DNA of 28,045 bases from an uncultured delta proteobacterium (GTDB lineage Bacteria > RBG-13-61-14 > DRUE01). Every line of letters begins with the position of its first letter. The stretch's first letter is position 1. Position numbers and translations under genes: made by a program. The stretch spans positions 1 to 28,045 of the forward strand of contig CAIYYW010000368.1 of assembly GCA_903930515.1 (NCBI GenBank), in the 5' to 3' direction. Below, piece by piece: positions 2-20,160 of the stretch. The notes beneath the pieces are model-generated. The model was not told where the DNA came from, made no database searches, and saw nothing but the letters and a program-made list of their open reading frames with translations.

Positions 2-1651
2 GACGGAATTAACAATGATTGCGATGCCCTGACCCTGGACGATCCGGATGATGATCTGGATGGGGCTAGTCTTTGCGCTGCCACTGGCAACGATTGCGAT
101 GACGCGGATCCGAACAATTGGATCGCTTGCCTCACTTGTCTTGATGACGATTCGGATACCTATTATGTGGGCTGTGATGCTTATGCCACCATTCTAGGGC
201 CGGATTGCAATGATGGGGATGCGAACAGTTGGAACCCGGCCTCTTGCACCGATTGCGCCGATCTTGATGGGGATGGCTCTTTTGATCTCTGTGATGCTTA
301 TGTCACCGTTTCAGGGCCGGATTGCGATGATGGGGATGCGAACAGTTGGAACCCGGCATCTTGCGCCGATTGCGCCGATCTTGATGGGGATGACTCTTTT
401 GATCTCTGTGATGCTTATGACACCGTTTCAGGCCCGGATTGCAATGATGGGGATGCGAACAGTTGGAACCCGGCATCTTGCGCCGATTGCTTAGATAATG
501 ATCTGGATACCTATTATGCTAACTGTGATGCTTATACCACCGTTTTAGGCCCGGATTGCGATGATGATCCTGTTACTGGTCCTCTTATCAATCCGGCCGC
601 CGCGGAAATCACCTGTAACGGAATTGACGAGAACTGCAATGGACTCTCGGATGATGATCCGGATGGGGACGGTGATGGCGTAAGTTTTTGCCCTGCCACT
701 GGCAACGATTGCGACGATACTGATCCATTTAACTGGGTCAATTGCGCCACCTGCGTAGATACAGATGGAGATGGCGTTAAGGGAACCGCGTGCGATATTG
801 CCGAGGATTGCAATGACGGCGATATTACGATTTATCCCGGCGCGACTGAGATTTGCGATGACGGCATAATCCAGGACTGCGATCGTGCCGCTGATTGCGC
901 CTGCGGCGACGACGTCTGCGAGTTGACCGAGGACGCGGTAACCTGCGCGGCGGATTGCGTCTGCGGAGACGGGATCTGCAGTGGCGGAGAGGATTCAGCC
1001 AGCTGCCTGGCCGATTGTTTCTGCGGAGACGGGCTCTGCAATATAGCTGACGAGGATGCGACCAACTGCGTGGACGATTGTTTCTGCGGAGACACGATCT
1101 GCAGTGTGGGCGAGGATGAGGATACTTGTATTGCGGACTGCCCGGCCACTTGCGGAGATACCTATTGTAATCCCTTGCAGGAAGATCAAGGAATCTGTCC
1201 GGATGATTGTTGGGGAGATTGCGGGGATAATGTGTGCAACAAGTATAATATCGATTGGGATCCGGCTGGAGAGACTGCAAGCACCTGCCCCGAGGATTGC
1301 GAAGGATGCGGAGATTCACTTTGCAATTTCTCTACCGGAGAGGATTCGGGTGTATTTTTCTGCCCGTCTGATTGTCCGGGAACTTGCGGAGACACCTTTT
1401 GCAGTTTTGCAGAGGATTTGGCCGGCTGTCCGGCGGATTGTTGGGTTTGCGGGGATACTTTCTGCACGGCTGGGCAAGAGGATACAAATACCTGCCTGGC
1501 GGATTGTCCGGTAACTTGCGGAGATTTGATCTGCAGTGTGGGAGAGACTAATGCTACCTGCGCGGCGGATTGTCTCGTAACTTGCAACGATGGACTTGGA
1601 ACTTGCGATGCGGGAGAGACTCCTTCCAACTGCCCGGGGGATTGCCCCTAA
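2..1651 (+). CDS. Secreted Cys/Asp-rich repeat protein with MopE-like metal-binding motifs (5' partial)
   Basis: The frame is open from base 2, so the gene starts upstream and only its last ~549 codons are seen. Three zones are visible. The first holds ~39-residue units with a PDCNDGDANSW core. The second has MopE-type putative metal-binding motifs (ICDDGIIQDCD, CNGIDENCNG, DGDGDG), a family rich in Asp and Cys that is usually exported. From about base 898 to the end come eleven units of the form CGDxxC...GED...C..DC, each with about four Cys. There is no transmembrane segment or sorting signal at the C-terminus, which simply ends on a repeat. The Asp-rich DxDxDG stretches suggest calcium or other metal binding, and the paired Cys suggest disulfides formed outside the cytoplasm. 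The exact function is unknown; a surface or matrix protein is likely. Confidence 0.85.
   Translation, partial: DGINNDCDALTLDDPDDDLDGASLCAATGNDCDDADPNNWIACLTCLDDDSDTYYVGCDAYATILGPDCNDGDANSWNPASCTDCADLDGDGSFDLCDAYVTVSGPDCDDGDANSWNPASCADCADLDGDDSFDLCDAYDTVSGPDCNDGDANSWNPASCADCLDNDLDTYYANCDAYTTVLGPDCDDDPVTGPLINPAAAEITCNGIDENCNGLSDDDPDGDGDGVSFCPATGNDCDDTDPFNWVNCATCVDTDGDGVKGTACDIAEDCNDGDITIYPGATEICDDGIIQDCDRAADCACGDDVCELTEDAVTCAADCVCGDGICSGGEDSASCLADCFCGDGLCNIADEDATNCVDDCFCGDTICSVGEDEDTCIADCPATCGDTYCNPLQEDQGICPDDCWGDCGDNVCNKYNIDWDPAGETASTCPEDCEGCGDSLCNFSTGEDSGVFFCPSDCPGTCGDTFCSFAEDLAGCPADCWVCGDTFCTAGQEDTNTCLADCPVTCGDLICSVGETNATCAADCLVTCNDGLGTCDAGETPSNCPGDCP
197..580 (+). repeat. Near-identical 117-bp tandem repeats inside the Cys/Asp-rich gene
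   Basis: The GGGCCGGATTGC / GGCCCGGATTGC block recurs at 197, 314, 431 and 548, an exact 117-bp (39-codon) step, so the reading frame is kept. Units 1 to 3 are nearly identical at DNA level through GATGGGGATGCGAACAGTTGG, while the unit starting at 548 diverges after a few codons. A more diverged copy precedes them near base 80. The similarity suggests recent expansion by slippage or recombination. Confidence 0.85.
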
Positions 1652-1683: not shown

Positions 1684-1732
1684 CAGGGTCGGTTGCCCGA
1701 TTATTCGGGCAACCGGCCCTGTTTGTTTTTTA
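1684..1732 (+). terminator. Intrinsic terminator of the Cys-rich repeat gene
   Basis: A 17-bp stem (CAGGGTCGGTTGCCCGA pairing with TCGGGCAACCGGCCCTG, one G-T wobble) with a 4-nt TTAT loop is followed by a T-rich run (GTTTGTTTTTTAT). It begins 33 bp after the stop codon and separates this gene from the downstream operon. The strongest terminator in the window. Confidence 0.92.
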
Positions 1733-1766: not shown

Positions 1767-1794
1767 TTGCTAAATCCTGCCCAGATGTTAGAAT
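1767..1794 (+). promoter_or_regulatory. Sigma-70-like promoter of the kinase/radical SAM/Ig/McjB operon
   Basis: TTGCTA (1767-1772), 16-bp spacer, TAGAAT (1789-1794). It is the only promoter-like element between the terminator and the first gene of the operon. Transcription would begin near 1801, right at the ATG at 1802; see the start discussion for that gene. Confidence 0.5.
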
Positions 1795-1801
1795 TATATG
1801 T

Positions 1802-2794
1802 ATGCAGGGGAACTTTGTGGTCAAATTTGGAAAGGCCTTGATCTCGGTTCAGACCGATTCGCAGGATCTTTTTGATCCGCTCTCAGCATACCTCCGGGAG
1901 CACCGGGTGGAATCGGACGATTTTGACGCGGAGATTGAGCTGAATCTGAAGAAAATACTTTCCCCCATTCCCACTTATGCCCGGCTGGCGCTCCGGTATT
2001 ACGCGGTAAAGGTCTTTTACCTGGAGGGCCGGGTATATTTCACTGATTTCCGGTCTTTTCTGACCCTGGAGCCGGGCGGGAAGAAGCTGATCGGGTATGT
2101 CTCTCCGGAGACCCTGGAGGAAAGCGGCATTCATTTTTTCACCCATACCTTTTTCACGCTCGCATTGTTTGAGTTGCTGAGGCATCAGGGGTTTTTTTTC
2201 CTGCATTCCTCCGCCCTGATCTCTCCGGAGAAAAAGCCCTGTCTGTTCCCGGCAGGAGGGGGCGAAGGCAAATCCACCCTGGCCCTGCACCTGATCCATC
2301 AGGGCTATCGTTTTATCAGCGATGACATAGTATTTTTAAGCCGCGCTTCGGGACGGGTGACGGTTTCGGGCTTCAAGAAATTAAGCCACCTCTCGCTTGA
2401 GGCGATGAAGCGGTTCCCGGAGCTGGCCCAACTGAAACACGCTCCCAGCCTGGACGGCAAGGGGAAGAAGATCGTGGACCTGGACCGGGTATATCCGGGG
2501 CAGAGGGCGGACCAGGCCGGGGGAAAATTCTTGCTGATTTTCCCAAAGCGGGTTGATAACGGCAATAGCCGGCTCCAGCCTTTGAGCAGTCTGGAGGGGT
2601 TTAAGTTGCTTTTGAGCCAATCGCCCCTGGTGTTTATAGAGCCGGCCTTGGCGAAAGAGCATATGGGGATACTCCGCGACCTGATCGGCTCCTCCCGGCT
2701 CTGGCTTTTGGAAAGCGGCAAGGACTGGATTGAGGACCCGATGGTATTGAAAAATCTGATCGGACGGGCCGGGCAGGGGCGAGGGAAGGAATGA
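1802..2794 (+). CDS. HPr kinase-like (HprK/PCK-fold) protein of a RiPP-type cluster
   Basis: 330 aa. A P-loop sits at residues 152-159 (GGGEGKST) and a Walker-B-like DD at 174-175 (ISDDIVFL), preceded by the family's LHSSALI histidine segment (His135). This is the HprK C-terminal fold without the N-terminal sensor domain of true HPr kinases. Relatives occur in lasso-peptide and other peptide-modification clusters, where some phosphorylate a precursor peptide. Here it heads a four-gene operon and overlaps the radical SAM gene by 4 bp (ATGA). The start is uncertain: ATG 1802 has no Shine-Dalgarno and lies about where the promoter would begin transcription (leaderless), whereas GTG 1817 is preceded by AGGGGA at good spacing. 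The substrate is unknown; a modified peptide or the neighbouring giant protein are candidates. Confidence 0.8.
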   Translation: MQGNFVVKFGKALISVQTDSQDLFDPLSAYLREHRVESDDFDAEIELNLKKILSPIPTYARLALRYYAVKVFYLEGRVYFTDFRSFLTLEPGGKKLIGYVSPETLEESGIHFFTHTFFTLALFELLRHQGFFFLHSSALISPEKKPCLFPAGGGEGKSTLALHLIHQGYRFISDDIVFLSRASGRVTVSGFKKLSHLSLEAMKRFPELAQLKHAPSLDGKGKKIVDLDRVYPGQRADQAGGKFLLIFPKRVDNGNSRLQPLSSLEGFKLLLSQSPLVFIEPALAKEHMGILRDLIGSSRLWLLESGKDWIEDPMVLKNLIGRAGQGRGKE

Positions 2795-3822
2795 GTCCGG
2801 CCAAAATAAATTTTGAGCTGACCGGCGCCTGCAATTTATCCTGCGCCCATTGCCTGCGGGACCGCACTCTTAAGAACGAACTGCCGCTCCCGCTGATCCA
2901 GAAGGCGCTCAAGCAGGCCCGGGCTTACGGCATCAACCGGGTTTCTTTTACCGGCGGGGAGCCTTTGCTTTATTCGCGCTTCCAGGAACTGGCGGAGTCA
3001 ACCGTGTCTTCCGGAGTCCAGTTCGCCCTGGTCACCAACGGCATCCTGCTCCCGCGCTTTACCCGGCTGCTGAGCCGGCCCGAACTCAAGCCCGGGCTGG
3101 ACCGGATTTGCGTCAGCCTGGAAGGCCCGGACCCGGAAACCAACGATCCGGTCCGGGGAAAGGGCAGTTTCAAAAAAGCCCTCCAGGGAATACTATCCGC
3201 GCGATCCCGCGAACTGCCCTTCGCGATCAAGTTCACCATCAATTCCCGGAATTATCAAAAAATAGAAGAGATGGCCCTGCTGGCCGGAAAGCTCGGGGCC
3301 TTTGAGCTGCAACTGGCGCAACTGTATCCCACCCCGCAAAACCTCTCCGCGGGACTCGCGCTCCCGCCCGGGCAGTGGGAATTGGTCCAGGCCGAATCCC
3401 TCCGGCTCAGGGACTTGCTCAAGTTGAATTTGATCTTCAGCGCCGGATGCTATGTGGATGAAAATTTCCCCATTTGCGGACACCTGGGGATGACCGAATA
3501 TTATGTGGACTCGCGCGGATGGCTCTGCCTCTGCTGTATGCTGGCAGGGGTGGCCGGAAGAGACTCCGGCAAAAGGGAAAAAGACCGGATCGCGGATTTG
3601 CGTCAAACCAGCTTCTTTGACGCGCACCGGAAATTGATGGACCGGATCATTTGGTTCCATAAAAAACGCCTGGAGCGGATTGAGCGGGGAGAAGTGAGCG
3701 AGTTGGAACACTACCAATGCCTGTCCTGCGGATTTCATTTCGGCAAACTGGACTGGTTGAAGGATTTTCCGGGAACGGCCTGGGAAGATCTATTCCAGAA
3801 GGCGCGAGGGGGACGGCGATGA
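2791..3822 (+). CDS. Radical SAM protein with C-terminal cysteine cluster (SPASM/Twitch-like)
   Basis: 343 aa. The canonical Cx3CxxC motif is at Cys14, Cys18 and Cys21 (CNLSCAHC), with the GGEP segment (TGGEPLLY) around residue 53, so it should bind one 4Fe-4S cluster and SAM. The C-terminal third has further cysteines (GCYVDENFPICG, LCLCCML, YQCLSCGFH), suggesting one or two auxiliary Fe-S clusters, as in peptide-modifying enzymes. The start is ATG 2791, overlapping the kinase stop as ATGA, with AGGGAAGGA just upstream; its own stop overlaps the next gene in the same way. Together with the kinase and the McjB-like protease this points to post-translational peptide or protein modification. 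The reaction cannot be read from the sequence. Confidence 0.9.
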   Translation: MSPAKINFELTGACNLSCAHCLRDRTLKNELPLPLIQKALKQARAYGINRVSFTGGEPLLYSRFQELAESTVSSGVQFALVTNGILLPRFTRLLSRPELKPGLDRICVSLEGPDPETNDPVRGKGSFKKALQGILSARSRELPFAIKFTINSRNYQKIEEMALLAGKLGAFELQLAQLYPTPQNLSAGLALPPGQWELVQAESLRLRDLLKLNLIFSAGCYVDENFPICGHLGMTEYYVDSRGWLCLCCMLAGVAGRDSGKREKDRIADLRQTSFFDAHRKLMDRIIWFHKKRLERIERGEVSELEHYQCLSCGFHFGKLDWLKDFPGTAWEDLFQKARGGRR

Positions 3823-6800
3823 AAAAACGCCTGGTCGTCTATCTGGCGGCGCTCCTGATCGGCTCCGGTTGTGGACTCGCAGGAGGCGGTGGAGGCGGCG
3901 GCGGAGGAGCCGGAGGAGCCGGGACCGGGCTTGATCCCAGCGTTCCCGACACCTTCATCTACCACCGGCCTCCCCGGCAGACCTCATCTTCGGAGGCCTC
4001 TTTCCGGTTCCATTGTTCAAGTTCGCCCTGCGAATTCGAGTGCCGGCTTAATTCCAGAAAATGGTCCTCCTGTTCCTCCCCCAAGAAATACACGGGCCTG
4101 GCGGAAGGCAAAAATATTTTCCGGGTCCGGGCGACAAACGCCTTGGGAACAACCGATTCCACCCCGGCAAAATATAAATGGGTGATTGATACCATTCCGC
4201 CGGACACGATTATTTCTTCCAAGCCTTTTGACCCGAGCAATTCCGACAACCCATCTTTTGAATTCACCTGCGACCAGGGGGATTGCACCTATGAATGCAA
4301 CCTGGATTTCGGAGCCTGGGTATCCTGCTCCCCGCCGCAAACCTATCCCGGCCTTTCCGATGGCCTTCACACCTTCCAGGCACGAGCCATTGATTTAACC
4401 GGAAATGTTGATCCGATCCCGGTGAGCTTTAGCTGGACCATTGACCTGACTCCGCCGGATACCTCCATCTTTTTCCAGCCGCCGGATCCGAGCAATTCGC
4501 GGGACGCCGCTTTTGATTTCATCTGCGACGAGTCCAATTGTATCTTTCAATGCCAACTGGATGACAGCGGTTTTGTCCCCTGCGCCTTTCCGGCCGCCTA
4601 CTCCGGGCTATCGGAAGGGCATCATTATTTTGAGGCGCGCGCGGTTGACCAGGCGGGAAATACCGACCCGGTCCCGGCCGGATACAACTGGACCGTTGAT
4701 GTCACTCCTCCGGACACCGTGATCACGGCCGCTCCGCCGGACCGCGTCAATTATGACAACGCGAGTTTCTCTTTCATCTGCGACGAGTCGGCTTGCGCTT
4801 TTGAATGTCAACTGGACGGCGGAGGATTCAGCGACTGCGCCTCCCCTAAAAATTATCCGGGCCTGTCCGACGGCAGCCATACTTTCCAGGTCCGGGCCGT
4901 AGATGCCGCGTCCAACCTGGATGGCAGTCCCGCGGGAGATACCTGGAAAATAGACACGGTTCCGCCGGAGACCAACATCGCTTCCCATCCGGCGAACCCG
5001 GTCAATCTGAATTACGGCGCTTTCAGTTTCACCTGCGATGAAGCGGGTTGTAGTTTTGAATGCGATCTGGACGGAGCAGGGTTCAGCGCCTGTGTCTCTC
5101 CCAAAACCTATCCCGGATTGGCCGACGGCAATCATACCTTCCAGGTCCGGGCCACGGACGCGTTGGGCAATCCCGATCCCACTCCCGCGTCATATCCCTG
5201 GCTGATTGATACCACGGCTCCGGACACCAATATTGACTCCAACCCGCCCAACCCCAGCGCTTCCGGCTCCGCGAGCTTTTCCTTCAGTCACACCGAGCCT
5301 GGAAGCACTTTTGAGTGTCAACTGGACTCGGGGGGATGGGTTTCCTGCTCTGCCCCCAAGGATTACTCCGGCCTGACGGACGGCGATCATACTTTCCAGG
5401 TCCGGGCGATTGACCCGGCCGATAATCCGGACTCGAGTCCGGCCGGTTACAGTTGGAAAATTGACACCGCGCCCCCGGACACCAGCATCATTGCCCATCC
5501 CCCGGATCCATCCCATTTGCCAAATCCGGTTTTTGAATTCAACTGCAATGAAGCAATTTGCGCCTTTGAATGTAAAATGGATTCCGGAGCCTGGGCAGCC
5601 TGCTCTTCTCCCAAAGATTACTCCGGCCTGGCGGACGGCGGTCATACTTTCCAGGTCCGAGCGATTGATCAAGTGAACCTGCCCGATCCCGCTCCCGCAT
5701 CTTACATTTGGACTATTGATCTCACGGCCCCGGACACCTATATTGATTCCAACCCGGCCAACCCCAGCGGTTTCGGCTCCGCGAGTTTTTCCTTCAGTTA
5801 CACCGATCCCGGAAGTACTTTTGAGTGTCAACTGGACTCGGGGGGATGGGTTTCCTGCTCTGCCCCCAAAGATTACTCCGGCCTGGCGGACGGCGATCAT
5901 ATCTTTGAGGTCCGGGCCACGGACGCTTTGGGCAATCTCGATCTCACCCCCGCTCAATACAACTGGACCATTGACACCGCGCCCCCGGACACCGGCATCA
6001 TTGCTCATCCCGCGGATCCATCCCATTTGCCAAATCCGGCTTTTGAATTCAACTGCAACGAAGCAATTTGCGTCTTTGAATGTAAAATGGATTCCGGAGC
6101 CTGGGTATCCTGCTCTTCTCCCAAAGATTACTCAGCCCTGGCGGACGGCGGTCATACCTTTCAGGTCCGAGCGATTGATCAAGTGAATTTGCCCGATCCC
6201 GCTCCCGCATCTTACAGTTGGACTATTGATCTCACGGCCCCGGATACTTTTATTGATTCCAACCCGGCCAACCCGGCCGATTCCGGCTCCGCGAGCTTTT
6301 CTTTCTTCGGAGACGAGCCCGGATGCGTCTTGCAATGTCAACTGGACGGCTCCGGATGGGCCGCGTGCTCTTCTCCCAAAGATTATGCCGGGCTGGCGGA
6401 CGGCTATCATACTTTCCAGGTCCGGGCGATTGACCCGGCCGGTAATCCGGACCCGAGTCCGGCCAATTACAGTTGGAAAATTGACACCACGCCCCCGGAC
6501 ACCAATCTCATTTCCTATCCCGCGGATCCGGCCAACCTGTCTTCCGCGACTTTCAGTTTCGGCTGCAATGAAACGGTTTGCTCCTTTGAATGTCAACTGG
6601 ATACAGGCGGGTTTAATGACTGCTCTTCTCCGCAAAATTACACCCTGCTTCCGGACGGAGATCACGCCTTTGAGGTCCGAGCAACCGACGCGGTGGGCCT
6701 GACCGATTCCACGCCCGCGACATATCTCTGGCTGATAGACACCACGCCGCCGAATACGGTTATTACCTTAAGCCCGTCCAACCCGAGCAATTCCCCGGAC

Positions 6801-8744
6801 CCGACTTTTGGATTCGCCGCCGATGAAGGCAATTGCTCTTTTGAATGTAAAATGGATGCCGGGGCCTGGACCGCATGTTCTTCCCCCAAGTCCTACTTCG
6901 GCCTCTCCCAGGCCGGACATACCTTCCAAGTCCGCGCAACCGATGTGGTGGGCCTGACCGATTCCACGCCCGCAACTTTTATCTGGACCATTGACACCAC
7001 GCCCCCGGATACCTCTATCAATTCCACTCCCCCGGACCCGGACAATTCCAGCTCCGCCGCCTTCTCCTTCGCCGCCACCGAGCCGGGTTCCACTTTTGAG
7101 TGTAAATTGGACGGCGGAGGGTTTGCCGCCTGCGCCTCTCCTAAAATTTATACCGGCATCGCTCCGGCCGATCATACTTTCCAGGTCCGCTCCATAGACC
7201 CGGCCGGAAATGTGGACTTGACTCCCGCGGTTTATAGCTGGACCATTGAGGCCAATTCCTATAATTGTTTCCAGATCATTATTGACCCCGCTTACCAGGT
7301 CACCGTGATCCCGCCGAGCTCCTTCTCGCCGGTGGCGGATTATCCCGGCCTGAACGCCGACCGGGTCTCCGACCAGATCCAGGTGAACAGTTGGCTCAGT
7401 TCCAATGACCCCGCGCAACTGGTGATCAAGATTACCAATATCGGCTCCCAGGACCTTCCCCGCCTCTGGATGGACGGATTGCTCCAGATCGGAGGAGAGG
7501 TTCTTGATCCCGACGCCCTCAACCAGGGGGAGCATCCCGTTCTGGTCTTTGGGCCGCTGGCGCCCGGGGAAACAATGTCCCGGACCTTCAACCTCAACCT
7601 CACCGACCTGCCCTGCACCCTGCTCTGGGACCCGCTTAAGATCCAAGGCCGGGTGGCTTATGCCTCTGACTTTAAGATGCCCCTGTCCTGGAGGGCCTGG
7701 TCCGCCAACCTTTCCGGCAAAAACCCGACTATGGTCACCAGCCTCCCGGACCTGTCCGTCCGGATCGGACGCTTGATCTGGACCGCGGGAATGGAATGGA
7801 TCGGCTTTAGCTACTTCGGCGGAAACGGCGATCAAATCGGCATCGTCCATCCCGACGGCTCCCATTTCCGAATCGTCGCCTCGGGCAGCACCCAGATCAA
7901 TTTCTTCCCGGATGGAAAGGAGATTTTTTATCTTTGCTCTTACCGCGTCCCCACCTCCAGCTATGATCTTTGCCTAAATGATTTGTCCGGCGCCTCGGAA
8001 CAGGTCTTGATCCGGGGAGACGGTTATTACTGGGACGGGACCGGCTATCAAGCCTACACCCCCTTGCCCGGCAATTCCGCTTTTTTGCAGACCTCGCTTT
8101 ACCGGCCGACCTTAAGCCCGGATGGGCGGAAAATAATCTTCATCGGCCAGGACCCCAATCTGTCGCTTGCCCCCCTCAACCTCAACCACCGCTGGCTGAT
8201 GCTGGACGCCCAATTCGATCCATCCTCTATGACCCTGCAAGGAGCGCCGGCGCTGGCCGGGAAACTCTTTGATGGGGACACCCTGTCCAATTCCAACAAG
8301 TTCCTGGGACTCTACGAGTTCGTCCCCACTTTCAGCCCGGACGGAAAAAACCTGGTCGGGTTTGTCAAGGAGTTTAAATACAACGCGGTCAGCAAAAAGT
8401 TCGCCCTGGATTTTTACGGCCTGGTCCGGATCAAGATTGACGACCTGATGGCGCAACCTTCCCCCGTTTATATCGGGAATACCAATTATATGACCAAGAT
8501 TCTAGACATCCGCATTTTTTCCAACTCGGTCGACGCCTCATACATTAATTTCCAGGATTATTCCGACCAGGTGGGAGGAATCCTGTTCACGGTCAAATTT
8601 GACGACCAGTATGCAACCGTGTATCTCCTGCCGGTAAATGCCAATTTCGTCCCCCAGGGAGCCCCCAAGGCCTTTATCCAGAACGCATATTTCAACGCCT
8701 TCCCGGATGTGGCCACCCCGGTCCTTCCCGGCGCTTATCAATGA
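3819..8744 (+). CDS. Giant Ig-like repeat lipoprotein with TolB-type beta-propeller C-terminus
   Basis: 1641 aa from ATG 3819, which overlaps the previous stop (ATGA). An in-frame extension to 3717 is rejected because it would bury the signal peptide. MKKR plus a hydrophobic stretch and Cys18 (LLIGSGC) look like a lipoprotein signal, although the residue at -3 is Gly rather than Leu. A Gly-rich linker (LAGGGGGG) follows. Residues ~40-1141 are 13 Ig-like repeats of ~84-85 aa with the frame PPDT...FEC.LD...C.SP..Y.GL.DG.HTFQVRA.D...W.ID. Most repeats have four Cys; repeats 6, 8 and 13 have two. Residues ~1142-1330 form a separate beta-rich domain. The C-terminus carries PDGK-type blades (FFPDGKEIF ~1362, LSPDGRKII ~1431, FSPDGKNLV ~1505), typical of TolB/PD40 propellers. 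A surface adhesion or sensing role is inferred. Confidence 0.88.
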   Translation: MKKRLVVYLAALLIGSGCGLAGGGGGGGGGAGGAGTGLDPSVPDTFIYHRPPRQTSSSEASFRFHCSSSPCEFECRLNSRKWSSCSSPKKYTGLAEGKNIFRVRATNALGTTDSTPAKYKWVIDTIPPDTIISSKPFDPSNSDNPSFEFTCDQGDCTYECNLDFGAWVSCSPPQTYPGLSDGLHTFQARAIDLTGNVDPIPVSFSWTIDLTPPDTSIFFQPPDPSNSRDAAFDFICDESNCIFQCQLDDSGFVPCAFPAAYSGLSEGHHYFEARAVDQAGNTDPVPAGYNWTVDVTPPDTVITAAPPDRVNYDNASFSFICDESACAFECQLDGGGFSDCASPKNYPGLSDGSHTFQVRAVDAASNLDGSPAGDTWKIDTVPPETNIASHPANPVNLNYGAFSFTCDEAGCSFECDLDGAGFSACVSPKTYPGLADGNHTFQVRATDALGNPDPTPASYPWLIDTTAPDTNIDSNPPNPSASGSASFSFSHTEPGSTFECQLDSGGWVSCSAPKDYSGLTDGDHTFQVRAIDPADNPDSSPAGYSWKIDTAPPDTSIIAHPPDPSHLPNPVFEFNCNEAICAFECKMDSGAWAACSSPKDYSGLADGGHTFQVRAIDQVNLPDPAPASYIWTIDLTAPDTYIDSNPANPSGFGSASFSFSYTDPGSTFECQLDSGGWVSCSAPKDYSGLADGDHIFEVRATDALGNLDLTPAQYNWTIDTAPPDTGIIAHPADPSHLPNPAFEFNCNEAICVFECKMDSGAWVSCSSPKDYSALADGGHTFQVRAIDQVNLPDPAPASYSWTIDLTAPDTFIDSNPANPADSGSASFSFFGDEPGCVLQCQLDGSGWAACSSPKDYAGLADGYHTFQVRAIDPAGNPDPSPANYSWKIDTTPPDTNLISYPADPANLSSATFSFGCNETVCSFECQLDTGGFNDCSSPQNYTLLPDGDHAFEVRATDAVGLTDSTPATYLWLIDTTPPNTVITLSPSNPSNSPDPTFGFAADEGNCSFECKMDAGAWTACSSPKSYFGLSQAGHTFQVRATDVVGLTDSTPATFIWTIDTTPPDTSINSTPPDPDNSSSAAFSFAATEPGSTFECKLDGGGFAACASPKIYTGIAPADHTFQVRSIDPAGNVDLTPAVYSWTIEANSYNCFQIIIDPAYQVTVIPPSSFSPVADYPGLNADRVSDQIQVNSWLSSNDPAQLVIKITNIGSQDLPRLWMDGLLQIGGEVLDPDALNQGEHPVLVFGPLAPGETMSRTFNLNLTDLPCTLLWDPLKIQGRVAYASDFKMPLSWRAWSANLSGKNPTMVTSLPDLSVRIGRLIWTAGMEWIGFSYFGGNGDQIGIVHPDGSHFRIVASGSTQINFFPDGKEIFYLCSYRVPTSSYDLCLNDLSGASEQVLIRGDGYYWDGTGYQAYTPLPGNSAFLQTSLYRPTLSPDGRKIIFIGQDPNLSLAPLNLNHRWLMLDAQFDPSSMTLQGAPALAGKLFDGDTLSNSNKFLGLYEFVPTFSPDGKNLVGFVKEFKYNAVSKKFALDFYGLVRIKIDDLMAQPSPVYIGNTNYMTKILDIRIFSNSVDASYINFQDYSDQVGGILFTVKFDDQYATVYLLPVNANFVPQGAPKAFIQNAYFNAFPDVATPVLPGAYQ
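3939..7242 (+). repeat. Thirteen ~255-bp coding tandem repeats (Ig-like modules)
   Basis: The DNA underlying the Ig-like array. Units begin at xxPPDT/xxAPDT codons roughly every 252-258 bp. Between about 5215 and 6300 the sequence matches itself at an offset of exactly 510 bp (for example 5461 versus 5971, 5701 versus 6211), so a two-repeat block duplicated recently; other units are much more diverged. Confidence 0.88.
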
Positions 8745-9223
8745 TGACGGGCCGGATAAAAACTTTCGCGAAATTCGTGCAAACCTGGTCCGGGCTTTGG
8801 CTGTTCCTCCGAATCGGATACTGGATCGCGGCCATCTCCCTCCTGCTCCGGCTGATCCCGCTCCCCCGCCTGCTCCGCCTGCTCACTCCGAAAAAATGTC
8901 CCGGCCGGAAATGGCCGAGGGAAACCCTGATCAATTTCACCAGCTTCTGGCTCGGACGGGAGCGCGCCTTCTTCAGCAGGTCCTGCCTCCGGCGATCCCT
9001 GGTCCTATACCGATACCTCAACCTCCAGGGAGAGCCGGCCGGCTTCCTGATCGGAGTGACCCAAGAAGATCATCAACTCAAGGCCCATTCCTGGATACTG
9101 ATCGGGGGGAAAAAGCTCTTCCCGGACGAGAATATCTCCTACCGGGTGATTTACCAATATCCCCATGCGGGAAGCGGATCGGGCGAAGCGCCGGATCCGG
9201 GGATCTCCGGGATTATGGACTAG
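8741..9223 (+). CDS. Lasso-peptide biosynthesis B2 (McjB C-terminal domain)-like transglutaminase-fold protease
   Basis: 160 aa. The N-terminus is hydrophobic (residues ~19-47, LWLFLRIGYWIAAISLL), so it may be membrane-attached. The core matches the McjB C-terminal family: SCLRRSLVLYRYL with catalytic-type Cys82, then LIGVTQ and KAHSWILIGG with His116, and an acidic residue at the expected distance (Asp129 in FPDEN). McjB-type B2 enzymes are Cys-His-Asp leader peptidases. The usual HAW is HSW here. There is no RRE (B1) domain. The start overlaps the Ig-protein stop (ATGATGA; ATG 8744 is an alternative). Its 3' end overlaps the convergent glycosyltransferase gene by 11 bp. Role inferred: cleavage of a modified precursor or of an envelope protein in this operon. 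Confidence 0.8.
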   Translation: MMTGRIKTFAKFVQTWSGLWLFLRIGYWIAAISLLLRLIPLPRLLRLLTPKKCPGRKWPRETLINFTSFWLGRERAFFSRSCLRRSLVLYRYLNLQGEPAGFLIGVTQEDHQLKAHSWILIGGKKLFPDENISYRVIYQYPHAGSGSGEAPDPGISGIMD

Positions 9224-10712
9224 CCGGTCCGATCCTGGTCACCCGGAAAATTCGGAAGGAGCCGATTTGAGCCTCAAGCGTGATTAAATGGTTTGAAAGT
9301 TCGGTCCGATCCTGATAGCTCAGCCACTGGAACATATCGTTGACGCGGTTGTATTGAAAGTCGTTGGGAAGCCAGACGATCCAGTCGGGCTCAAAGCTCA
9401 GGAAATCCTTGCCTTTAAACTCGGCGTAATAAAAAACCTCCCGGAAATGAAAATAATCCTGGAACGGGAGATCGCGCAGCAGCCAGGAAAACTCGTCATC
9501 CCTCCGGTCCGGGATCAAAATCCGGTAGCGATGATTTTTCAGGATCGGCCGGAAATATTCCGCCAACTGGATCGTCTGCTTCTGTAGCTCGGATTCCCGA
9601 TTCAAAGCCTTCAGCTCCACGCTCCCGAGCCGAAACCCGGCCCAGGTAAAATATTCGCAAAGGATTAAAACCACCAGCCCCCAGGCCAGCTTGTTATAGC
9701 CGCGCGCTTTCAGGGATTGCCAAAGCCGCTGGATCAGGTATCCCGCGTAAAAAATCATAAACACGCTGACCGGGAAGAAGAAGCGCATCTGCGGATACAG
9801 ACCGCGCCAGATGGAAAGGTAAAGGAACAGGAACATAATCGCCGGGATGATCAGCAAGGGATCGCGCGCAATTTTCCTGCGATGGTCCCAGGCATACCAG
9901 AGCCAACCCAGCAGGCAGAGGATCTCAAAGGGCAGGCTGAATTTCTTGGACAGGAAAAAATTGAACCAGCTCAGGGATTTCCAGAGACCGAAGTAAGCGC
10001 CGGTGCTGATCATCTTGTCATAACGGGCCACCCCCAGGCTGTAAAGAAGATCGTGGTGCAAAAACCAGTCCTTGCCGAACCAGACCAGAGCCGAAAGCGA
10101 GATTAGGCCCCCGGCAAAAGCCCAGCGGAAAAATTCCCTGCGGTTTTTCGGGAACAGCCAGTAAGCCAGGGGAAAGGCCAGCAGCCAGTTTTCCGGACGG
10201 GCCAGCCCTCCCAAAAACCCCGCAACCGCATACCCCTTCCAGAGCTCCTTTTGCTCCACCATTTTCGCGCCGAAATAGACGCCGAGCACAATAAAAAAGG
10301 TTCCCGGTACCATCACGATCGCCTGGACCGTGTTGTCAAACAGGTCCGGGGCAAACCCGAGCATCAGCATTGAAAGGAAAGCAAACCCGAAGCTGAGCCT
10401 CTGCCGGGCGCAAAGAAAAAACGCGAACACCAAAAGGGCCGCGAAAACCGCGCTCGTCAACTCAAACCCCAAAGGCCCGCCGGCAAAGACAAAAAGCCCC
10501 AGGATCAGCGAGTAGGGCTTGTAAAACCGGTGGGGAGGGATCGCCAGCTCTCCGGTCTTGACCCAGCGGTAAATAAAATCCAGCGCTGAATATTCATCGT
10601 TGATCAGGGTGGGATACAAACGCCGGATCCAGAAGCAAAAATAAATCAGGATCGCCGCGGAAAAAAGCAACGCCGCGAAAAGCTCGCGATTTTTCCTGCC
10701 CGGATCAGTCAT
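9213..10712 (-). CDS. GT-C-type membrane glycosyltransferase (PMT/ArnT-like)
   Basis: 499 aa from ATG 10712, which overlaps the pyrD stop as ATGA; ATG 10736 would add eight residues but overlap pyrD by 28 bp. About ten or more hydrophobic segments alternate with loops. The first periplasmic-type loop carries an acidic pair (Asp39-Glu40 in LINDEYSALDF), the hallmark of polyprenyl-phosphate-sugar-using GT-C enzymes, and the GLARPENWLLAFPLAYW segment is typical of these integral proteins. The C-terminal ~100 residues are soluble (PDRRDDEFSWLLRDLPFQDY). Donor and acceptor are unknown. It is the last gene of the rimI-pyrK-pyrD operon, and the functional link to pyrimidine synthesis is not obvious. 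Confidence 0.75.
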   Translation of the reverse strand: MTDPGRKNRELFAALLFSAAILIYFCFWIRRLYPTLINDEYSALDFIYRWVKTGELAIPPHRFYKPYSLILGLFVFAGGPLGFELTSAVFAALLVFAFFLCARQRLSFGFAFLSMLMLGFAPDLFDNTVQAIVMVPGTFFIVLGVYFGAKMVEQKELWKGYAVAGFLGGLARPENWLLAFPLAYWLFPKNRREFFRWAFAGGLISLSALVWFGKDWFLHHDLLYSLGVARYDKMISTGAYFGLWKSLSWFNFFLSKKFSLPFEILCLLGWLWYAWDHRRKIARDPLLIIPAIMFLFLYLSIWRGLYPQMRFFFPVSVFMIFYAGYLIQRLWQSLKARGYNKLAWGLVVLILCEYFTWAGFRLGSVELKALNRESELQKQTIQLAEYFRPILKNHRYRILIPDRRDDEFSWLLRDLPFQDYFHFREVFYYAEFKGKDFLSFEPDWIVWLPNDFQYNRVNDMFQWLSYQDRTELSNHLITLEAQIGSFRIFRVTRIGPASP

Positions 10713-11623
10713 TCCGGTTTGAGCGTTCCGATCCATTGCTCTATTGATTGGAGGCCCAGGCCGGAAAGATAGTCTTTGATTTTCCTTAATATTTCCAGCG
10801 GCGCCCTCGGATTAGCCATCACCGCGGTGCCCAGCTCAACCGCCCTTGCTCCCGCCAGCAAAAATTCCAGCGCGTCCCTGCCCGAGCAGATTCCTCCGCA
10901 GCCGATCACCGGGATCCTCACCGCCCTCGCCGCTTCATATACCGCGGCCAGCGCCACCGGCTTGATCGCCGGCCCGCTCAACCCTCCGGTGATCCCGCCC
11001 AGGGCCGGCCGTTTCTTCTCCAATTCAATCGCCATCCCCCGCAAGGTGTTGCTGATCACCACCGCCTCCGCTCCCGCCTCCTCCGCCCACCGCGCCAGCT
11101 CAGCCGGGTCAGACCGGCTCGCGCTCAGCTTGACCCAAACCGGAAGACCCGACCTCGACTTGACCGCCCAAACAATCTGCTTCACCGACCGGCCGTCTCT
11201 CCCGAATTCCAGCCCGCCTTTTTTTACATTCGGGCAGGATAGGTTCAACTCCAGAGCGTTGATCCCGTCCTCCTTGCCCAACCGCTCCGCCAGCTTCGCG
11301 TAATCTTCCCGACGCTCTCCGAAAATATTGACCACCACCCGGGCCTTTTGCTTCCGAAGCAAAGGCAATTTCTCGGAAATAAATTTATCCACCCCAACAT
11401 TCTCCAGCCCGATTGAATTCAACATTCCCCCGGCGGTCTCCCATATCCTCGGCGGAGCGTTGCCCGCTCTCGGCTTGAGCGAAATCCCCTTGGTCACCAC
11501 CGCCCCCATCTGTCCGGCCGGGAAAAAATCCCGGTACCCGTCTCCGTATCCGCAGGTCCCGCTCGCCAGGATGATCGGATTCTTCAGAACCAGTCTCCCG
11601 ATCCGCGTTTCCAGACTCAACAT
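10709..11623 (-). CDS. pyrD: Dihydroorotate dehydrogenase B, catalytic subunit
   Basis: 304 aa, full length for the class 1B enzyme. It oxidises dihydroorotate to orotate in de novo pyrimidine synthesis, using FMN and passing electrons to PyrK and NAD+. Visible signatures are the N-terminal LKNPIILASGTCGYG, VVTKGISLKPRAGN (FMN lysine Lys45), NLSCPNVKKGG with the class 1 catalytic Cys130, and VIGCGGICSGRDALEFLLAGA for FMN phosphate binding. Cys rather than Ser as catalytic base, together with the adjacent pyrK, marks type B. The start ATG overlaps the pyrK stop by 7 bp (ATGTTGA). Cytosolic. Confidence 0.96.
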   Translation of the reverse strand: MLSLETRIGRLVLKNPIILASGTCGYGDGYRDFFPAGQMGAVVTKGISLKPRAGNAPPRIWETAGGMLNSIGLENVGVDKFISEKLPLLRKQKARVVVNIFGERREDYAKLAERLGKEDGINALELNLSCPNVKKGGLEFGRDGRSVKQIVWAVKSRSGLPVWVKLSASRSDPAELARWAEEAGAEAVVISNTLRGMAIELEKKRPALGGITGGLSGPAIKPVALAAVYEAARAVRIPVIGCGGICSGRDALEFLLAGARAVELGTAVMANPRAPLEILRKIKDYLSGLGLQSIEQWIGTLKPE

Positions 11624-12453
11624 CTAACCCTCTCCCAGTCAATTTGATCGAACCGGAGCGCCGGACCATCCAGGCAGGCGTGAAGGTATCCACCCCCAGA
11701 GGCCGGGACCGCGCAGCCCAGGCAGGCCCCCACCCCGCACGCCATCCGCTCTTCATATAAAACCTGGCCCGGTATTTTTTTCGACAATGCCGGCTTTGAC
11801 AGCGACTTGAGCATCGGCTTGGGGCCGCAGGCAAAAATATGTTCCGGCAGACCCTCTTGATCAATCAACTCCTTCACCAGCTCGGTGGCCAGCCCGGCCT
11901 TCCCCAAACTGCCGTCCTCGGTCGCCGGATGGACTTTGAATCTCTTGCTCAATTCCTTCAGCAGAAAAAATCGCGATTTGCTTTTAACCCCCCAGACCAA
12001 CTCAACCGCGCAATTCGGGTTCCTCCCCAACGCCTCCGCCAGAGACCACAACCCCGCCATTCCCATCCCGCCCGCCACCAGCAAAACCCGGCCGCGAAGA
12101 CCTTTGGTCTCAAAACCATTCCCCAGAGGGCCGATGATGCTCAAATCCCCGCCCTCCCGACGCCGGCTTAAAATCTCCGTCCCTTTCCCCATTACCTGAA
12201 AAGCGAACTCCAGAATCCGCCGGTTCGGAAAATACCGGAACCAACTCAACGGCCTCCCCAACAGCGGCTCGCTCCCCTCCCGAACCCGCAGCATAAAAAA
12301 TTGCCCCGGCTTGACCGCAACCCTTCCCGAAAGCCTCAACGAAAGCAGATACAAATCATCCCCGATCCGATGATAGTTATTGATCTTACATTTATAGATC
12401 CCCTTCATTCCCGATTCCTCTTTCGCAAAGGAGCGTGCTTCCCGACAAGTCAT
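11617..12453 (-). CDS. pyrK: Dihydroorotate dehydrogenase B, electron transfer subunit (FAD/2Fe-2S)
   Basis: 278 aa from ATG 12453, which overlaps the rimI stop (ATGA). An internal ATG at 12408 has a better Shine-Dalgarno (GAGG eight bases upstream) and fits the usual PyrK N-terminus, so the first 15 residues may not be made. The FAD-binding segment is GRPLSWFR, the NAD-binding motifs are LLVAGGMGMAGL and FACGPKPML, and the 2Fe-2S cysteines are 239, 244, 247 and 260 (CGVGACLGC then HACLDGP; Cx4Cx2Cx12C). It carries electrons from PyrD FMN to NAD+ in the PyrD2-PyrK2 complex. Confidence 0.95.
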   Translation of the reverse strand: MTCREARSFAKEESGMKGIYKCKINNYHRIGDDLYLLSLRLSGRVAVKPGQFFMLRVREGSEPLLGRPLSWFRYFPNRRILEFAFQVMGKGTEILSRRREGGDLSIIGPLGNGFETKGLRGRVLLVAGGMGMAGLWSLAEALGRNPNCAVELVWGVKSKSRFFLLKELSKRFKVHPATEDGSLGKAGLATELVKELIDQEGLPEHIFACGPKPMLKSLSKPALSKKIPGQVLYEERMACGVGACLGCAVPASGGGYLHACLDGPALRFDQIDWERVRC

Positions 12454-12956
12454 AAGTCAAGACCTGACCCCAACTTAAGTTTCATCACGATCGCGTCCTC
12501 CCCGGTATCATAATAGTATTTGGGCCGGATTCCCACCGGCTGGAACTCAAACGCCCGGTAAAGGGACCGGGCCGGGAAATTACTCGGCCTCACTTCCAGC
12601 CAGACCTCCCTGATCCCCCGGCTTTGAAAATCATCCAGGGCGCTGAGCAAGAGATACCCGGCCAGTCCCCGCCTCCTCCAATCCGGCCGGACAGCCACGC
12701 TCAGGATGGAGGCCTCCGGCTCCATCAGCCAGCAGAAAATATAGCCGGCGATTTCCCCCTCCGAATTCAGCGAGGCCATCCGGTGATATGCGAACTTCAG
12801 TTCCAACTCCTTCAAGAACATCTCCCGGGTCCAGGGGGCGCGGAAACTTATTTGCTCGATCGCCATCGCCTGCTCCAGGTCTTGCTTTTGAAAGGGCCTG
12901 AGCGAGACCAGCGTTTCCCACTGTTTCCGCAATGCCGCTCGTTTCTCCTGACCCAT
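12450..12956 (-). CDS. rimI: Ribosomal protein alanine N-acetyltransferase-like GNAT enzyme
   Basis: 168 aa, GNAT fold. SFRAPWTREMFLKEL is the RimI-type N-terminal signature, VAVRPDWRRRGLAGYLL is the acetyl-CoA pyrophosphate loop (R-R-x-G-x-A), and LEVRPSNFPARSLYRAFEF plus the Tyr-rich KYYYDTGEDAIVM end the domain. RimI acetylates the N-terminal alanine of ribosomal protein S18; other RimI-like GNATs have other targets, so the substrate is an inference. First gene of the minus-strand operon with pyrK and pyrD. The last codons (KLGSGLDL) are encoded by a GGGGTCAGGTCTTGAC sequence that looks like an intergenic repeat and may have replaced the original C-terminus. Confidence 0.88.
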   Translation of the reverse strand: MGQEKRAALRKQWETLVSLRPFQKQDLEQAMAIEQISFRAPWTREMFLKELELKFAYHRMASLNSEGEIAGYIFCWLMEPEASILSVAVRPDWRRRGLAGYLLLSALDDFQSRGIREVWLEVRPSNFPARSLYRAFEFQPVGIRPKYYYDTGEDAIVMKLKLGSGLDL

Positions 12957-18244: not shown

Positions 18245-18249
18245 AAATG

Positions 18250-20160
18250 ATGTGCGGGTTTGCCGGAAAGTTTTATTTCAATTCCCAAGCCAGGCCCGAC
18301 CCCTCCATCATCCAAAAAATGACCCGCCTCCTGGTCCATCGCGGCCCGGACGAGGAAGGTTTTTTTTCCGAAGACCAGGTCGCGCTCGGGCATCGTCGTC
18401 TCAAGGTCATTGATTTATCCACCGGCTCCCAGCCGATCATCAGCGCCTGCGGCCGGGGGGTGATCGTTTTCAACGGCGAGATTTACAACTTCCAGGAATT
18501 GCGGAAGGAATTGGAAGGCAAGGGCCGGAAGTTTCTCACCCGCACCGACACTGAAGTTATCCTGAACGGCTACCTGGAATACGGAGACTCTTTCCTGGAA
18601 AAACTTTCAGGCGTCTTCGCCTTCGCCATTTACGATCGGGCCGAGAAAAAAATGATCCTGGCCCGGGACCATTTCGGGGTCAAGCCGCTATATTATTATC
18701 TCGGCCCGGGCTGGATCAGTTTTGCCAGCGAATTGAAAGCGCTCCTGCAAGACCCTGCAATCCCGCGGCAGGTTGACCCGGTCGCGATATATCAGCTTTT
18801 CCAGACCCTCTACATCCCGTCTCCCCGGAGCGGCATCCTGGGCGCGCACAAGCTTGAAAACGCTCATTGCCTGATCATCAGGAACGGCCGGGTTCAAGAC
18901 CAAAAGTATTGGCAATTGAGCTCGCGCGATGAATCTCTGGCGCCCTCGGAGAAAGAGGGCCAGGAAAGGGTCTTCGCCGAGATCGAGCGAGCCGTGGAAT
19001 CTCAACTGATCAGCGATGTCCCGATCGGGGTTTTCCTGTCCGGCGGATTGGATTCGTCCACCGTGGCCGCGGCCGGGATCAATCGCACCCAAGGCAAGCT
19101 CAAGACCTACACGGTCGGTTTTGAGGAAGAGCAATGGGACGAGAGCAAATGGGCCAAAGCGGTCGCCGAAAAGCTCAAGGCCGATCACACCTTGCTCCAG
19201 AGCCGCGCCCAGGATTTGGAATCGCTGATTGAAAAATTGGTCTGGCATTTTGACGAGCCGCACGGGAATTACACCGCCGTCGCCAATTACCTGCTCTGCC
19301 AGGCCTGCCGCAAGGAGATCACGGTCGCGCTCTCCGGAGGAGGCGGCGACGAAATCTTCGCCGGTTACACCCATCATATCGCGGACAAGCTGATCAACTA
19401 TTATTATATGCTCACCCCGGCGCTGGCGCGCAAAGCCCTGCTCGGCCCGCTGTTCAAAAGTCTCTCCCCCTCGGACCAGGTTCCCGGAATCCGCCGCCGG
19501 CTTTCGCGCGGCCTTGGCTTTGAAGAAGCGGACCTCGCGCTCCGCCATCTCAGGTTCATCGGCCAACCCGGGTTCAGCAATTACCTGGAACAGGGAGAGG
19601 TGATCGGCTTTGACCGCTTAAGCCCCCAGGACCGATCCGCCAATGACGCCTTTGTCCACTTGAGCCGATACGCCCGGGAGTATCCCGGCACCGACCGGTT
19701 CAACTCGCTGCTCTGGCTGGATTTGAACACCTACCTCTGCGATGACATCCTGATGATGACCGACCGGATGAGTATGGCCAATTCCTTTGAAGTGAGAGTG
19801 CCCCTGATGGATTTAAAAGTAGTGGACGCCGCCTTCTCGCTCCCGTTCCATTACAAGCTCCCGGGCCTGGATCAGAAGCATATCCTCAAGCAATACCTGC
19901 TCCAGTATCTTCCGCCCGAGCTGGTATACCGGCCCAAGCAGGGCTTCGGAATCCCGCTCCAGGTCTGGATCAAAGGCAAGCTGAAAAATTTTTTCCAGCA
20001 AATCTTTGAAAGCGAACTCGCCCGAAATGAAGACTTGGTTTCCATCAGCCTCGCCCGGAAACTGCTCAAGGAACATACCGAACAGGGCCATGACCATACC
20101 AGCCGGATCTGGTTGCTCGCCCACTACCTGCTCTGGAAAAAAACCTTCGCCGTGTCCTGA
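18250..20160 (+). CDS. asnB: Asparagine synthetase (glutamine-hydrolysing)
   Basis: 636 aa, the usual length of the bacterial AsnB family. The start is set at the second of two adjacent ATGs so that Cys2 becomes the N-terminal nucleophile after Met removal (MCGFAG); starting at 18247 would give MMC and spoil it. The glutaminase half shows RGPDEEG, HRRLKVIDLSTGSQP, FNGEIYNFQEL, RTDTEV and ARDHFGVKPLYYY. The synthetase half has the PP-loop FLSGGLDSSTVAA (264-270), FDEPHGNYTA, LSGGGGDEIFAGY and YRPKQGFGIP. It makes asparagine (or amidates a related acid) from aspartate, glutamine and ATP. All catalytic motifs are present, unlike lasso-peptide cyclases, which lose the glutaminase Cys. Confidence 0.94.
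   Translation: MCGFAGKFYFNSQARPDPSIIQKMTRLLVHRGPDEEGFFSEDQVALGHRRLKVIDLSTGSQPIISACGRGVIVFNGEIYNFQELRKELEGKGRKFLTRTDTEVILNGYLEYGDSFLEKLSGVFAFAIYDRAEKKMILARDHFGVKPLYYYLGPGWISFASELKALLQDPAIPRQVDPVAIYQLFQTLYIPSPRSGILGAHKLENAHCLIIRNGRVQDQKYWQLSSRDESLAPSEKEGQERVFAEIERAVESQLISDVPIGVFLSGGLDSSTVAAAGINRTQGKLKTYTVGFEEEQWDESKWAKAVAEKLKADHTLLQSRAQDLESLIEKLVWHFDEPHGNYTAVANYLLCQACRKEITVALSGGGGDEIFAGYTHHIADKLINYYYMLTPALARKALLGPLFKSLSPSDQVPGIRRRLSRGLGFEEADLALRHLRFIGQPGFSNYLEQGEVIGFDRLSPQDRSANDAFVHLSRYAREYPGTDRFNSLLWLDLNTYLCDDILMMTDRMSMANSFEVRVPLMDLKVVDAAFSLPFHYKLPGLDQKHILKQYLLQYLPPELVYRPKQGFGIPLQVWIKGKLKNFFQQIFESELARNEDLVSISLARKLLKEHTEQGHDHTSRIWLLAHYLLWKKTFAVS

Follow-up and report, generated by a model that had tools for sequence, protein, structure and literature searches.

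A kinase, radical SAM and B2 peptidase operon as the probable enzyme half of a split RiPP pathway with lasso-type leaders

Introduction

Operons that join peptide-modifying enzymes to a very large envelope protein raise the question of what the enzymes act on. We analyzed such a case in a window of 28,045 nucleotides (the whole stretch of DNA under study) from an uncultured delta proteobacterium. A preliminary description, made from the sequence alone, had recognized a RiPP-like operon of kinase, radical SAM enzyme (rSAM), giant lipoprotein and leader peptidase. It saw neither a precursor peptide nor an RRE, and regarded the giant protein as the only obvious substrate.

The closest frame of reference is the lasso peptide pathway. 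Lasso leaders carry a motif at positions -17 to -12 and usually a Thr at -2, a lasso kinase phosphorylates Ser3 of the core, and the B1 protein assists both the kinase and the B2 peptidase (PMC10368454). The bsf cluster of Bradymonas sediminis adjoins a gene for an FG-GAP protein (PMC10368454). We found no description of the present gene set in the open-access literature.

Results

The operon and its surroundings

Gene calls and the ATGA overlaps at every junction agree with the earlier proposal of a four-gene operon (Table 1). The MopE-like protein upstream falls into the same similarity cluster as the giant protein, here named LpB, and is kin to the MopE part of LpB from a genome of the same order (G002); its membership in the system is uncertain. 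Next to the B2 gene, the window carries PMT-like, dihydroorotate dehydrogenase-like and RimI-like genes (9213-12956), an arrangement shared with a genome of the same genus (G001; L023 700-5646).

Table 1. Positions of the features discussed in the text.
Feature	Position	Strand	Remarks
MopE-like Cys/Asp-rich repeat protein	2..1651	+	Cu-binding_MopE 3.7e-10; cut off by contig start
Terminator-like hairpin closing the MopE-like gene	1684..1721	+	17-pair stem, then T run
Promoter-like site of the four-gene operon	1767..1794	+	TTGCTA-16-TAGAAT, 9/12 matches; consensus match only
HprK-like peptide kinase (predicted)	1802..2794	+	330 aa
rSAM with C-terminal auxiliary Cys residues	2791..3822	+	343 aa
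LpB, probable giant lipoprotein, Ig-like repeats and C-terminal PD40/TolB-like module	3819..8744	+	1641 aa; system-associated secreted protein
B2-type leader peptidase (lasso B2 family)	8741..9223	+	160 aa
FFGRF(R/Y)P-tailed proteins (anammox loci)	L062 8259; L064 1712, 9519; L072 8652; L175 7260

The three enzymes

The Walker A motif of the kinase reads GGGEGKST and, like the rSAM Cys motif, is as described before. The best NCBIfam matches were HprK_rel_A (5e-11) and HprK_rel_B (2e-10), both far under cut-off; at 42.2 bits against a cut-off of 200 the kinase falls outside the curated HprK_rel_A model, and the Hpr_kinase_C match is likewise under cut-off. The strongest PDB sequence matches were HPr kinases (6e-9). 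Residues H135, G156, K157, D174, D175 and D308 are invariant across the kinase family, which retains the Walker A motif, the His and the Asp-Asp pair.

The rSAM matches PF04055 (3e-21) and contains eight Cys residues that are invariant among 25 homologues (C14, C18, C21, C229, C248, C249, C310, C313), combining CxxxCxxC with conserved C-terminal Cys residues as in SPASM/twitch-type enzymes. A Foldseek search with its AF2 model (pLDDT 90.6) returned BlsE, SuiB, SkfB, anSME and PqqE, a likeness between predicted and known structures that leaves the reaction unfixed. Equivalog scores stayed below cut-off for PqqE (70 of 381 bits) and mycofactocin (78 of 265 bits). When placed among 48 other rSAMs, the family enzymes formed a single clade with support 99/99.

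The B2 protein exceeds the cut-offs of both PF13471 (43.9 bits, cut-off 26) and NF033537, lasso_biosyn_B2 (44.4 bits, cut-off 33). Cys82, His116 and Asp129 had been put forward as its catalytic residues; in 17 aligned family B2 proteins the Cys and the His are invariant, while the column of Asp129 varies, often holding an acidic residue. A phage search with B2 as query gave no match.

An RRE and, in the sister species, a precursor are encoded apart from the enzymes

The MAG that contains the window (3.65 Mb, 401 contigs, 93% complete) has a single PqqD (RRE), encoded on contig C98. This protein matches PF05402 above cut-off, and its best NCBIfam model is lasso_PqqD_Bac, with 52.8 bits under the cut-off of 80. 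It is followed on C98 by an open gene for a 713-residue lipoprotein (LpA) that runs off the contig. In the sister species G001, one contig (C699) carries PqqD, a homologous LpA and a 43-aa precursor (MKMKKEKKSYQKPEIKKNKHLVNVTFLSGPSVPGTPGSPGSVV). Kinase, rSAM and B2 are found together on another (C317), where no giant lipoprotein separates rSAM from B2, and LpB, with a different N-terminal part, sits on yet another contig. In G002 all parts are contiguous in the order PqqD-LpA-precursor-kinase-rSAM-LpB-B2. LpA is single-copy in the window MAG, G001 and G002.

The system is thus split in the sister species and apparently also in the window genome. The preliminary description had seen one half of it. 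Its statement that precursor and RRE are missing holds within the operon and fails beyond it, where a PqqD is present on C98 of the MAG and PqqD, LpA and precursor share one contig in G001. A separate precursor and RRE outside the operon, named there as a finding that would refute the proposal, is what we observed: the RRE in the MAG, the precursors in its relatives.

In the window MAG, neither the precursor from G002, nor the end of LpA plus precursor from G001, nor a four-sequence profile led to a credible precursor; a match on C39 (E 0.43) was rejected. The precursor of this MAG is expected to follow LpA, past the point where C98 breaks off.

The family loci showed no sign of a lasso cyclase: tblastn with the window AsnB as query gave no Asn-synthase match in 31 loci, a search that a divergent cyclase could escape. 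Asn_synthase homologues are present somewhere in every genome searched. The window itself encodes an asparagine-synthase/XrtA-type amidotransferase (18247-20160), under the NCBIfam cut-off for lasso cyclase.

The precursors share a lasso-type leader

Precursors in the family are short ORFs with a basic leader, mostly located directly before the kinase gene. All 17 first-found precursors fit the pattern [FY]xxPx[LIV]x9T, compared with 0.36% of shuffled sequences, and their register equals that of lasso leaders (Y at -17, Thr at -2). Some were first chosen by a loose leader pattern and others by position alone, and the fit is therefore partly selected. A profile trained on seven precursors was run against 6653 small ORFs and recovered held-out ones before kinases, with E from 7.6e-15 to 3e-4. 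Three further genomes found by the rSAM profile alone served as an out-of-sample set: kinase and B2 were present in all three, PqqD in two and a precursor in two, the small-ORF step having used the leader motif. One of these precursors (L143) fits the register and the other (L141) has Val at -2.

A profile also matched an ORF on contig C1 of G043 that fits the register and has a second copy, which fits as well. These tandem precursors (L159, ~7262-7643) lie directly before a gene for a 1071-aa lipoprotein (7691-10906), unlinked to the enzyme cassette on C14. Other weak profile matches in other genomes were rejected after reading. In G207, L056 and the L057-L060 group, the surroundings of the enzymes yielded no precursor.

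The predicted cores are of two main types, FFG[ST]FxP and A/G/P/S-rich, the latter in the relatives of the window. Because core motifs differ between lineages, a single reaction may not be common to all. Asp or Glu at ring positions 7-9 is absent from 15 of 17 predicted cores, and most cores, judged by their sequence, are unable to form a lasso ring.

One Brocadia locus (L064; 1979-2282, 10296-10484) holds two or more precursors, possibly three, of which one precedes a second, apparently broken kinase gene. In a second Brocadia locus (L175, 7260-10449), a precursor and part of a kinase are accompanied by a small secreted protein and a protease ending in FFGRFRP; from reading the sequences, we take the former to be chagasin-like and the latter papain-like.

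Distribution of the cassette

A search of genome contigs with an rSAM alignment recovered 26 close loci, along with many that are distant. Near the close loci a kinase was encoded almost always, PqqD and B2 mostly, and a PF14907 nucleotidyltransferase in many cases. The earlier view of a RiPP-type operon is supported. By sequence comparison, kinase and rSAM form a monophyletic cassette across several phyla, with hosts that include Deltaproteobacteria, Schekmanbacteria, Nitrospira, Thermodesulfovibrionia, anammox planctomycetes, Acidobacteria, Desulfosarcina and Trueperaceae. More distant rSAM loci carry PqqD and B2, or PqqD and kinase (L093 9286-11005, L125 8775-10981), suggesting that related gene combinations occur outside the rSAM clade. 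Upstream of the precursor, loci from Nitrospira, anammox bacteria, Deltaproteobacteria and Acidobacteria repeatedly encode small secreted proteins that resemble an STN-type domain and have no Pfam match (L063 5349-5924, L077 7812-8696).

Large secreted proteins accompany the cassette

LpB matches Big_13 (5e-34) and PD40 (2e-5) in Pfam and contains 255-bp tandem repeats. Its N-terminus (...LLIGSGC) is not a canonical lipobox, and on this sequence the assignment as a lipoprotein is probable; the G002 homologue has ...LPAC. The N-terminal modules vary by genome (Ig, MopE, Kelch; G002 has MopE repeats in place of Ig at the same gene position), whereas the C-terminal module is conserved and single-copy in the window MAG (G000), G001 and G002. 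LpB lies between rSAM and B2 in two of these three genomes. The proposed gene order recurs in G002 but not at that junction in G001.

G022, from an unrelated lineage and akin to the window at domain level only, encodes a PD40 lipoprotein directly before B2, in addition to PqqD and a 917-residue probable lipoprotein. Together with the single-copy C-terminal module, this upholds the earlier claim that the giant envelope protein belongs with the operon. Large secreted proteins, called by a simple hydrophobicity rule, were found near the cassette at 10 of 24 family loci, compared with 7 of 49 control loci (P=0.017).

In anammox genomes, the neighbors of the precursors include five large secreted proteins that end in [GS]FFGRF[RY]P(K). 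These tails resemble the core GFFG[TS]FxP but carry Arg where the core has Ser/Thr. In a pattern scan of 15 genomes, which sees FFGxFxP-stop and no other tail variants, there were few hits per genome, and plausible protein ends were mostly at cassette loci. The tail thus looks dedicated rather than general, and a general FFGRFRP sorting signal is disfavored. The likeness in sequence between tail and core does not establish the tails as substrates.

Discussion

We consider it likely that the operon supplies the enzymes for a split RiPP pathway comprising short precursor, PqqD, kinase, rSAM and B2, and that the product is not a lasso peptide. The family is best read from its sequences as a RiPP group that borrows lasso leader processing together with phosphorylation and that uses an rSAM, with no lasso cyclase detected.

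The genomes show the gene content, the conserved catalytic residues, the leader register and the co-occurrence; all reactions, their order and the part of the lipoproteins are our inference. A precursor with a lasso-type leader, encoded beside PqqD and away from the enzymes in the sister species, would be bound through its leader by PqqD (RRE/B1), which would present the core. By analogy with the bsf and pseudomycoidin enzymes (PMC10368454, PMC9266682), the HprK-like kinase would phosphorylate Ser/Thr of the core with the help of the RRE. The rSAM would add a further core modification of unspecified chemistry, and the core would not be turned into a lasso. B2, again by analogy, would cut one residue past the conserved leader Thr (Thr at -2) and release a core of about 6-28 residues. 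The PF14907 nucleotidyltransferase of many relatives could elaborate the phosphate. As secreted partners, LpA and LpB would probably dock or carry the peptide or respond to it.

Phosphorylated lasso clusters (bsf, PMC10368454; paeninodin and pseudomycoidin types, PMC9266682) are alike in having a discrete RRE (B1), B2, a kinase and often a nucleotidyltransferase, as well as a YxxPxL leader of identical register in which position -2 is usually Thr. In contrast to them, the family has an rSAM instead of a detectable clustered Asn-synthase-like cyclase, most of its cores lack the ring Asp/Glu, and large secreted partners recur. The lasso features that it does have are the leader, a B2 with Cys and His, and the RRE/B1 protein (PF05402).

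rSAM RiPP maturases of the PQQ, mycofactocin, SkfB and SuiB types share an rSAM with C-terminal Cys residues, PqqD and a short precursor, and the solved structures closest to the family rSAM include SkfB, SuiB and PqqE. Nevertheless, this enzyme scores far under all equivalog cut-offs, and those systems are not known to have a lasso-type leader, a B2 peptidase or a kinase. SynChlorMet (Scm) and HPr-rel-A, as defined in NCBIfam, also combine HprK-like and PqqD-like proteins, Scm with rSAM proteins in addition; here, however, no tested protein reached the cut-off of any Scm or HPr-rel-A model, and ScmC-ScmF were all far under.

About 300 lasso-model RREs that co-occur with rSAM enzymes were counted as false positives by RRE-Finder; we found no precursor, B2, kinase or product assigned to them there (PMC7470986). 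These RREs may include the family described here, and hence the group may have been glimpsed before.

An extension of the split pathway with the same enzymology, which we regard as possible and tentative, is that the large secreted proteins, which have C-terminal modules in common, use the modified peptide as a cofactor, an anchor or a partner in assembly. In G001 and G043, precursors that are not linked to the enzymes still lie beside such proteins, variable N-terminal parts on a conserved C-terminal module would suit such a partner, and the FFGRFRP tails mimic FFG[ST]FxP. On the other hand, the mimicry is seen only in anammox genomes and the enrichment of large proteins is modest. The bolder form of this idea, a widespread undescribed RiPP class in which lasso-type leader machinery, a kinase and an rSAM yield a short, phosphorylated peptide that is a partner of giant secreted proteins in attachment or assembly, some of them with tails copying the core, strikes us as rather doubtful.

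It is unlikely that the giant surface protein is the main target of the enzymes and that they modify or process its repeats. The location of LpB within the operon, the beta-propeller lipoprotein beside B2 again in G002 and G022, the enrichment near the cassette and the core-like anammox tails would fit such a role. However, the relatives carry dedicated precursors with lasso-type leaders, and the giant protein as only substrate is not supported. Furthermore, LpB lies away from the rSAM-B2 junction in G001, only its C-terminal module is conserved, and Arg replaces the core Ser/Thr in the anammox tails. The giant protein recurs as a partner of the pathway and is at most a putative substrate; since the tails of large anammox neighbors copy the core, a weaker link between core and large proteins may exist.

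A lasso pathway in which an unlinked asparagine-synthase homologue provides the cyclase in trans is very improbable: leader, B1-type PqqD and B2 are lasso-like and such homologues occur in every genome searched, but the missing cyclase at the loci (barring a divergent one), with an rSAM gene there instead, and the unsuitable cores led us to reject it.

For the split pathway with its short precursors, the explicit precursors, leader register and predicted cut site make the reactions directly testable. If the proposal is true, lasso-type leader recognition and B2 cleavage would be a general platform that is not bound to the lasso fold, joined here to rSAM chemistry and phosphorylation. The group extends into nitrifiers and anammox bacteria, from which, to our knowledge, few RiPPs have been described. 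Should the core-like tails of the large secreted proteins be functional, they would tie a RiPP to the cell surface.
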